Below, piece by piece: positions 3,523 through 60,699 of a stretch of DNA of 64,000 nt. The notes under the pieces were generated by a model, which saw only the letters and a program-made list of their open reading frames with translations, did no database searches and was not told where the DNA came from. This DNA is from a virus: the IMG/VR virus record IMGVR_UViG_3300027749_000063, positions 35,220 to 99,219 of that record. One strand, given 5' to 3'. Both the position numbers and the translations under genes were made by a program. The number at the start of each line of letters is the position of its first letter. Within the stretch, counting starts at the first letter, position 1.

Positions 3523-3553
3523 TTGACTTAAACTTAAAATTAAATTATATTTG
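3523..3553 (+). promoter_or_regulatory. Bacteroidota-type promoter for the ring-muzzle unit
   Basis: TTG (3523-3525) and TATATTTG (3546-3553) are separated by 20 bases. This matches the Bacteroidota consensus of a -33 TTG and a -7 TAnnTTTG. It lies 36 bases before the ATG at 3590 and right after a terminator. Confidence 0.7.
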
Positions 3554-35196: not shown

Positions 35197-35228
35197 GATA
35201 ATTAAACTTAAAATAAGACTATACAATT

Positions 35229-58902: not shown

Positions 58903-59403
58903 TTATTTTAAGTTTTCTAGCCAGTCTATATCGTCTGGATTACTGGCCATTAGTATTTGGTTAATTCTTTTAAAGTGATCACACTCCCAAACTCCACCTT
59001 TGTATACAGCAGAAACAGGATGTGATGCTACTAGTACGTGGTGTACATCATCGTTGATAAGGGGAGCAAACTTTAAAGCGTCCTTTCCCCAAAAACAGAA
59101 TATAAGTCCTGTAGTACTCTCGTTTAGTGTTTTGAATACAGCTTCTGTAAACTGTTTCCAAGGCTCTAGATGAGAACCTGACTTACCTTCTTCGATAGTC
59201 AAAGCAGCATTTAGCATAAGAACTCCTTGCTTAGCCCATGATTCTATATTCATATCAGTGGGGAAGCTTAGTTCATCAGGATAAATGTCTTCTTTGATTC
59301 GTTTGTAGATCATTCTTAAAGACGGAGTCACATAAGTTTTTTTTCTAGGAGAGAAAGCTAATCCATGAGCAATAGGTTCCCCTACATTTCTACCTGGATA
59401 AGG
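58903..59403 (-). CDS. ung: Uracil-DNA glycosylase, exon 2 (166 codons plus stop)
   Basis: Exon 2 begins at 59403 with PYPGRNVGEPIAHGLAFSP, the continuation of the UDG water-activating motif, directly after the intron's terminal G. It carries GVLMLNAALTIEEGKSGSH (the VLLLN block), LIFCFWGKDA and the late motif VASHPVSAVYKGGVWECDHF with its catalytic His. Joined to exon 1 the protein is 233 aa, normal for family 1 UDG. An apparent ATG at 59439 lies in the intron and would add 12 foreign residues, so it is not a true start. The enzyme removes uracil from DNA and is common in crAss-like replication blocks. Confidence 0.8.
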   Translation of the reverse strand, partial: PYPGRNVGEPIAHGLAFSPRKKTYVTPSLRMIYKRIKEDIYPDELSFPTDMNIESWAKQGVLMLNAALTIEEGKSGSHLEPWKQFTEAVFKTLNESTTGLIFCFWGKDALKFAPLINDDVHHVLVASHPVSAVYKGGVWECDHFKRINQILMASNPDDIDWLENLK

Positions 59404-59458
59404 CATATTGTTATCGTATAGGCTCTTTATCCTATACATCTATACATTACTGCATAGT

Positions 59459-60454
59459 TCAGACTATATCATCAACAGACTTAAGTCCTCCAGAAACTAT
59501 ACCACCAGGATAGATGGTAAGTCCTCTAGACTTAATATTTATTGTCTGTTGCAGGGTGCTCGTGTCAACATTACTGTCCTCAGCATTATCTGTTTGGACT
59601 CGGTTGTTAGTCGTTGAACCTTCAAAGACATTTCTATCTAAGCTCGGCTGCTGATTGTCCTTGTTAGGATGTTCCAGCAATTCTCCCTGTTTTACATGGA
59701 CCCTATTTGCATAAGGAATTAATTTGTACTTTAAACTTGGAATAACATATGGAGTTACTAGGGAAAGGAATCTTTCTCTAGACTCTGCTACTATATAGAT
59801 TTCATTCATTGCATTCTTGTTTGTATTAATATCAAAGTTTTCCTTTAATATTATTTGCAATATTGCAATTTCTTCATCTAAAAAACTACAACTACTAATT
59901 TGGAAAGAGTTTTTAGTTGCAAACCCATCATCCATAAACCATACAGCAAGGCCAAATGCATCTAAATCCTTTAGAAAATCATAGTTGATACTTTTTTTAG
60001 GAGTATACTGACTACAATAACTGTTGAATATAGTATTTGCCTCTGTACTTAATATGTTGTTAGTATAAAATCCTTTTTTAACTCTTACATCTTTTGAAGT
60101 ACAGTTTCGTATACTTGTAATTATGTCTTTTGAGTGTAAGAAATTTAACTTCCACATATTGTAGTCTGTTTGTTTTTCTCCGTGACCAATTACTAATCTA
60201 GCGTTTTTACTTTGTTTCGCACTCATAGCAAAACAACCATCTCCTAAAAAACTGCCTAACAAAAACTGTCGTAACTCAAAGTCAACCTTTATATATCTAG
60301 TCTTATTTGCCTTGATTTTATAACGACTTGATAGTTTTTGTATGTGTTGTGGGGTAGTACTTAGGATTTTTGATATTTCTAGGTTAGTAAGTCCTTTTGA
60401 GTTTAGTTCTGTTATTTTTTGTTTCCAAGTAGTGTTTGTTGGTAGAGTTCCCAT
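59459..60454 (-). CDS. LAGLIDADG homing endonuclease inside the group I intron, 331 aa
   Basis: A helix-turn-helix-like start (LTNLEISKILSTTPQHIQKL, about 22-41) is followed by two dodecapeptide motifs, FLLGSFLGDG (64-73, D72) and AFGLAVWFMDDG (166-177, D175/D176). It is thus a two-motif monomer. From about residue 250 the frame is written over the ribozyme core, and the stop TGA falls next to element S. The last 80 residues (for example NKDNQQPSLDRNVFEGSTTN) are probably a by-product of RNA structure. It would cut intron-less UDG alleles at the motif GMDPYP. Its own promoter lies 5 bases upstream. Confidence 0.85.
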   Translation of the reverse strand: MGTLPTNTTWKQKITELNSKGLTNLEISKILSTTPQHIQKLSSRYKIKANKTRYIKVDFELRQFLLGSFLGDGCFAMSAKQSKNARLVIGHGEKQTDYNMWKLNFLHSKDIITSIRNCTSKDVRVKKGFYTNNILSTEANTIFNSYCSQYTPKKSINYDFLKDLDAFGLAVWFMDDGFATKNSFQISSCSFLDEEIAILQIILKENFDINTNKNAMNEIYIVAESRERFLSLVTPYVIPSLKYKLIPYANRVHVKQGELLEHPNKDNQQPSLDRNVFEGSTTNNRVQTDNAEDSNVDTSTLQQTINIKSRGLTIYPGGIVSGGLKSVDDIV

Positions 60455-60459
60455 ACCTA

Positions 60460-60489
60460 CAAATATAACACAAATTAATTTTTATGCAA
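60460..60489 (-). promoter_or_regulatory. Promoter inside the intron for the homing endonuclease
   Basis: On the minus strand, TTG (60489-60487) and TATATTTG (60467-60460) are 19 bases apart, an exact fit to the Bacteroidota consensus. The ATG at 60454 follows after 5 bases, so the transcript could be leaderless and separate from the UDG pre-mRNA. Confidence 0.65.
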
Positions 60490-60498
60490 GTTTTATCA

Positions 60499-60699
60499 AT
60501 CCATTCCTAAGATAACAACCCTTACTTTCTGAAAAGGAGTTAAGTTAAAAGCCTTAAAGACTTCATCCTTGTAAGGAAAGATAGTTTTAGTCTTTCTCTC
60601 ATTAGCAATGAATCTTCCTAAGGTATTAAAGTAAGGACTTTCTATTGTGTCTTTTAAGTGATGATACCAATCGTCTGGAATATCAATTAATTTTTGCAT
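60499..60699 (-). CDS. ung: Uracil-DNA glycosylase, exon 1 (67 codons)
   Basis: Exon 1 encodes MQKLIDIPDDWYHHLKDTIE ... KVRVVILGMD, the N-terminal UDG region up to the catalytic Asp67 of the motif that reads GMDPYP after splicing (GQDPYH in the E. coli enzyme). Without splicing the frame runs into TGA TAA immediately after the Asp codon and the product is dead, so activity depends on intron removal. Many phage UDGs have M and P at these variable positions. The start overlaps the end of the DnaA-like gene by 17 bases. Confidence 0.8.

Follow-up and report, generated by a model that had tools for sequence, protein, structure and literature searches.

A group I intron encoding a LAGLIDADG endonuclease splits the uracil-DNA glycosylase gene of a distant crAss-like phage at its catalytic aspartate codon

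The stretch of viral DNA analysed here (64,000 nucleotides, referred to as the window; positions 35,220 to 99,219 of IMG/VR record IMGVR_UViG_3300027749_000063) was found to carry a group I intron which interrupts the uracil-DNA glycosylase (UDG, ung) gene directly after the codon for the catalytic aspartate. The element is almost certainly a mobile, self-splicing intron of a crAss-like phage, possibly IA-like, with a LAGLIDADG homing endonuclease encoded in loop L1. The coordinates of its parts are given in Table 1; related loci are referred to by L numbers.

Table 1. Features of the interrupted UDG gene, in positions of the window
Feature	Position	Strand	Remarks
UDG exon 1	60499..60699	-	67 codons, MQKL...VVILGMD; ends GGAATGGAT
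Group I intron	59404..60498	-	1095 nt, phase 0; first codons in-frame TGA TAA, last base G; empty-site alleles L003-L007, L052
UDG exon 2	58903..59403	-	PYPGRNVGE..., 166 codons plus stop; starts CCTTATCCA
Bacteroidetes-type promoter motif (putative), TTG-N19-TATATTTG	60460..60489	-	-7 box 60467..60460
L1-closing helix, 5' strand TTGCATAA (P1 extension)	60482..60489	-	partner 59714..59707
L1-closing helix, 3' strand TTATGCAA	59707..59714	-	
LAGLIDADG homing endonuclease ORF, 331 aa	59459..60454	-	LAGLIDADG_2 (PF03161, Pfam), 78 bits; starts in loop L1
Internal guide sequence GTCCAT	59696..59701	-	P1 with exon ATGGAT; adjoining 5' AGG forms P10 with exon CCT
P, Q, R elements (P4, P5, P6, 5' strand of P7)	59607..59683	-	
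P8, 79-nt stem-loop	59473..59551	-	inside the exact match with the L102 DnaB-gene intron; nearly shared with L103
S element (3' strand of P7)	59459..59470	-	last three bases are the endonuclease stop TGA
P9 and P9.1 hairpins	59416..59457	-	P9.1: 6/7 pairs changed on both sides

Read separately, the first UDG ORF (60699..60496, minus strand) terminates ...VVILGMD-stop, while PYPGRNVGEPIAHGLAFSP lies within a second ORF (59439..58903, minus strand). When the two exons were joined they gave a single frame of 233 amino acids encoding an intact UDG, which in profile searches matched the UDG equivalog NF003592 with 211.9 bits over residues 7-229 and exceeded the cut-off of TIGR00628 (189.6 against 185.75 bits); the best match among solved structures was the uracil-DNA glycosylase 2ssp (6e-47). 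Both family-1 UDG motifs are present as variants, namely GMDPYP (GQDPYH-like) and HPVSAV (HPSPLS-like). In the alignment with solved UDGs the D of GMD coincides with the catalytic D of GQDPYH, which confirmed the claim of a preliminary description, made from the sequence alone, that the gene is split between GMD and PYP at the catalytic residue. The intron boundaries given there proved exact to the base, with an exon junction of GGAATGGAT-CCTTATCCA.

A covariance search, which the same description had suggested as a check, upheld its P, Q, R and S elements: RF00028 was matched over the full model (1-253) at 59766..59440 (minus strand) with 74.7 bits (gathering score 50 bits; E 4e-17 for the 64-kb window searched), and this was the sole RF00028 match in the whole 99,219-base record. 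Pairing of the guide GUCCAU with exon AUGGAU places a U.G pair at the splice site, and a terminal G and a 3-bp P10 (CCU/AGG) are present, all as first described. That reading was thus accurate for boundaries, P1, P10 and position, and incomplete in that it missed the endonuclease, the internal promoter motif and the overlap of the ORF with the ribozyme core.

The proposed fold was examined in a structure alignment of ten related introns and 49 core pairs (P3-P7, P7.1, P7.2, P9 and P9.1), in which 97.3% of cells were paired. Seventeen pairs had changed on both sides (shuffled mean 8.7; none of 500 shuffles as high), covariation across the core pairs was 0.307 compared to 0.139 when shuffled, and pairing fell to 28-40% when partners were slid by 1-3 columns. 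P7 is invariant in the alignment, so covariation neither supports nor opposes it. Two extra helices between P7 and P3, P7.1 and P7.2, were placed by eye, with all cells paired and little variation, and on these the intron may be IA-like (IA2-like). The helix formed by TTGCATAA and TTATGCAA encloses the ORF-bearing loop, and its pairing is kept where the sequence varies (TTGCGTA/TACGCAA in L075).

Relatives were collected by scanning viral contigs with the joined UDG protein, which gave 74 relatives. The comparison with intron-less relatives proposed in the preliminary description could be made, and six alleles (L003-L007 and L052), 97.3-97.6% identical in DNA, carry ATCTTAGGAATGGATCCTTATCCAGGT unbroken across the junction; the window exons are 99% identical to them in protein. 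One further UDG allele nearly identical to that of the window (L008, 3001-3699) has LAFDPYS in place of LGMDPYP at the homing site and may represent a resistant homing target. The identical insertion base is filled in four other phage lineages. L073 and L075 each carry an ORF-less group I intron of 277 nt (RF00028, 74.4 and 70.3 bits), L077, which was found through the endonuclease, a 1043-nt intron whose endonuclease is 63% identical to that of the window, and L128, L132 and L134, which came from a final scan that used the 3' junction, a 934-nt intron each with a LAGLIDADG ORF 33% identical to the window's. The L128 intron scored 82.2 bits against RF00028, and the UDGs of this last group are only about 32% identical to that of the window. 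The record is metagenomic (IMG/VR), which is what would make an assembly chimera or mis-join conceivable; this is nevertheless exceedingly improbable, and was rejected for the arrangement as such, as contigs assembled independently from different samples (L073, L075, L077 and L128/L132/L134), with different exons and lengths, show an identical arrangement at this very base.

Guide and exon were found to vary together among these introns: AUGGAU/GUCCAU in the window, L073 and L075, UCAGGAU/GUCCUGA in L077 and ACAGGAU/GUCCUGU in L128. Each exon forms 6-7 pairs with its own guide, the one at the splice site being U.G, but only 4 when the window- and L077-type guides are swapped. All UDG introns end in G, and P10, as read from the sequences, has 3 bp in the window and 2 bp in L077 and L075. 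It could be supposed that splicing has been lost and that UDG is broken, a pseudogene on its way out, given that the host genome is metagenomic and that splicing of the window intron is deduced from its structure. This is very unlikely: the exons are intact and almost unchanged in protein from the intron-less alleles, the exon changes closest to the junction are spaced from it by multiples of three, the pattern expected of silent third-position changes, the catalytic helices pair, and the guide both matches its exon and co-varies with it in relatives.

Every UDG intron opens with an in-frame stop directly 3' of the GxD codon. The case which the preliminary description had named as contrary to its reading, a relative encoding the same insertion as one uninterrupted protein, was sought and is contradicted by these stops and by the frame of the window's endonuclease ORF, which differs from that of both exons. 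The same two observations bear on whether the insertion could be an intein or other in-frame protein insertion, removed or kept at the protein level. Endonucleases of this family also occur in inteins, as in the intein-like insertion of L079 described below; against this, a Pfam search of the window insertion gave no splicing-domain match and a complete ribozyme is present. The probability of an intein is thus negligible, and this reading was rejected on the in-frame stop codons, unless these are recoded.

In a UDG tree which took in the window, L073, L075 and L077 (the L128 group, found later, was left out), intron presence requires at least four changes. The nearest rows to the window (L003 and L008) and the sister of L075 (L070) all lack an intron. 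An intron inherited rather than mobile, gained once in an old UDG gene and lost many times with a passive endonuclease, would also account for some of this, since every known copy of the intron in UDG occupies the homologous site, which common descent would equally produce, and since the tree counts changes and not directions, so that repeated loss could leave a patchy presence. We consider this unlikely, however, because the proteins of the window and L003 are about 1% apart and yet differ in the intron, as do those of L075 and L070, because the endonuclease ORF is intact, and because an exact 146-nt block is shared with the intron of a different gene in another phage, which shows recent exchange between introns. 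No co-conversion tract was visible beside the insertion against close relatives, a weak test because all of these are equally near.

The 146-nt match, which includes the 79-nt P8, is to the intron of a DnaB-gene (L102), and 69 nt are exact between the window intron and that of a RIIA/HSP90-like ATPase gene (L103). Three unrelated genes thus have introns with a nearly identical P8 stem-loop (minus strand), while the UDG introns L073, L075 and L077 have a short P8; a search for the shared block as a possible separate element gave only L102 and L103 among viral contigs, and none of the phage records. Parts are therefore exchanged between introns of this lineage that lie in different host genes. 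L109, L110 and L121 likewise carry introns of the lineage in which a LAGLIDADG endonuclease is preceded by TTG-N-TATATTTG 4 nt before the ATG, as in L102 (DnaB helicase gene). In L105 (about 1.2-2.5 kb, reverse strand) a MoxR-like AAA-ATPase gene is split and a GIY-YIG endonuclease is fused in frame to the ribozyme-encoded tail. Host genes for L100, L102, L103 and L105 were read from flanking translations, not from profile matches. A close relative among known introns is that in the dUTPase gene of crAssphage (L001; BK010471.1, 24167-25851; KP06_gp34/gp35), the core of which is 85% identical to that of the window over 142 nt. Both introns have an L1 ORF in the identical frame through the core, and the motif in crAssphage is TTTG-N18-TATATTTG; they differ in that the latter has a dUTPase host gene, an HNH endonuclease and a minimal P8. 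With cmscan at the gathering score the dUTPase introns in L001/L002 and the L134 copy were not listed, although their cores are plain by sequence, which indicates that Rfam thresholds or filters miss members. A core pattern scan of genome contigs gave no bacterial copy at that stringency.

The endonuclease ORF is intact and retains both LAGLIDADG motifs with their Asp (LLGSFLGDG and LAVWFMDDG). An AlphaFold2 model was mostly confident to about residue 250, and in Foldseek resembled I-SceI (E 2.5e-12) and I-WcaI (E 3.7e-12), with TM-scores of 0.70-0.73 by target length and shared LAGLIDADG motifs. Identity to these enzymes is 22-24%, and the window protein adds an N-terminal helical part and a disordered, ribozyme-encoded tail. 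Residues 253-331, which are those read from the ribozyme core, had pLDDT below 50 (mean about 28), and the protein is accordingly predicted to consist of a folded part of about residues 1-252 and a disordered tail. The only close relative found by alignment was the endonuclease of L077. Between these two introns the core is about 91% identical and the endonuclease domain 68% (the ends of the L077 slice compared are shifted by a few bases, so that the terminal bins alone are affected), as constraint on the RNA predicts. A distant relative of the window endonuclease forms a LAGLIDADG intein-like insertion in a terminase gene (L079, 2023-4992). The DNA polymerase gene of Leptolyngbya phage Lbo-JY46 (L108; PP438436.1, 36976-39930), whose product is 49% identical to the window PolA, is likewise split, with a LAGLIDADG ORF between the halves.

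About 240 nt of the endonuclease ORF lie over the core, between the guide (59701) and the stop codon in the S element (59461..59459). More extensive overlaps of ORF and core exist in organellar introns. The identical core frame is used in the crAssphage dUTPase intron for its HNH endonuclease (gp35), in the AAA-ATPase gene (L105) for the GIY-YIG enzyme, and for further LAGLIDADG enzymes, that of L102 lying in DnaB; in UDG introns of the L128 type the frame ends sooner, within P6. Loop L5 measures 21, 24, 27, 30 or 36 nt in members which keep the frame, always whole codons, and in two members with an L5 of 20 and 25 nt the core is not read in that frame. The frame is mostly preserved in the ORF-less members as well, and the whole-codon lengths of L5 may therefore reflect descent and not selection. 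Overlap of this kind was described in 2011 as 'core creep' (PMC3073962), where the largest value tabulated is 81 nt. The window intron is an extreme and shared form of it. The extensions varying from case to case that were predicted are mostly not seen in this lineage, and the predicted dispensability of the tail is consistent with the disordered model. A tentative and on balance doubtful extension of these observations is that the lineage keeps one ribozyme frame open as a common C-terminal 'dock', to which LAGLIDADG (two lineages), HNH and GIY-YIG enzymes have been joined upstream in frame.

The motif TTG-N19-TATATTTG ends 5 nt upstream of the endonuclease ATG and fits the consensus of the Bacteroidetes primary sigma factor (TTTG / TAnnTTTG; PMC7366714). 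Similar motifs (TTG-N19-TAnnTTTGTA-like) precede other phage genes at window positions 3523, 12416, 35128 and 40878 (plus strand); these are apparently the promoters of the phage, and their recurrence points to a Bacteroidetes host. A strict scan of the window for TAnnTTTG-N4-ATG gave no match at the endonuclease start because the gap there is 5 nt. L077 retains the motif before the endonuclease, and the ORF-less L073 and L075 lack it. In four of the seven endonuclease lineages of the intron family a motif of this kind lies within 75 nt of the start; none of 5000 shuffle sets reached three. If the motif is used as a promoter, as its sequence suggests, it is so close to the ATG that the transcript would be nearly leaderless. 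Such an RNA would lack the exon strand of P1 and be unspliceable, so that translation of the endonuclease need not compete with splicing.

From this anatomy a life cycle of the intron may be proposed. Translation of exon 1 would halt at UGA, the first intron codon, leaving the RNA free to fold, and P1 would form between the guide and the exon end. Guanosine would attack directly behind GAU, the catalytic Asp codon, and exon 1 would then attack after the terminal G, with P10 assisting, to give the message for the 233-aa UDG. The I-SceI-type endonuclease, expressed behind its phage-type promoter motif, would cut the intron-less UDG site, a target which is constant because it encodes the UDG active site, and repair of the cut would insert a copy of the intron. 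The 277-nt ORF-less forms would arise where the endonuclease is lost.

The label of a crAss-like phage, given in the preliminary description, held at the level of a distant relative. The TerL, portal, PolA, primase, PD-(D/E)XK nuclease and UDG of crAss001 match the genome at 23-41% identity and its RNAP weakly, while BLAST gave no match between the capsid protein and crAss001; a distant crAss-like phage is therefore a fitting description.

Compared to the td, nrdB and sunY introns of T4, with I-TevI-type endonucleases, the window intron likewise lies in a phage gene of nucleotide or DNA metabolism, has a stop at the 5' splice site and carries its endonuclease ORF in a peripheral loop; the overlap of ORF and core in td is 20 nt (PMC3073962). 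Unlike the T4 introns, its ORF is in L1, encodes a LAGLIDADG enzyme, covers almost the whole core and follows a Bacteroidetes-type promoter motif, and its host gene is UDG. Group I introns with endonucleases have been reported in conserved genes of Delta and Zeta crAss-like phages (PMC7886860) and of Jug phages (PMC12363816), which are phages of Bacteroidetes, as this one probably is, and metatranscriptomes support the splicing of many introns in the latter (PMC12363816). The hosts named in the quoted passages of these two papers are MCP, PolB, primase, ATP_43b, TerL, nrdD and DNA polymerase, and UDG is unnamed there. UDG as an intron host was not found in the open-licence literature searched, and the remark in the preliminary description that host gene and site were unfamiliar stands as far as it could be checked.

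The observation is real and well supported: a mobile intron of a known kind occupies a host gene, UDG, that is new for such elements, and the overlap of its ORF with the core is unusual. UDG is added to the phage genes that homing introns invade, the site being one which fixes the active-site codon, and the empty site, full intron, ORF-less intron and re-targeted guide found at that one base form a natural series for the study of intron life cycles. For annotation, split UDGs in crAss-like phages are to be read as spliced and not as broken. The unusual core overlap merits a larger survey, and its sharing by three endonuclease families with one core makes the 2011 predictions directly testable. 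If the 'dock' proposal is true, selection would act on the core at the protein level in addition to the RNA level, and recombination at one fixed junction would exchange one endonuclease family for another, in contrast to the independent and variable 'core creep' proposed in 2011.
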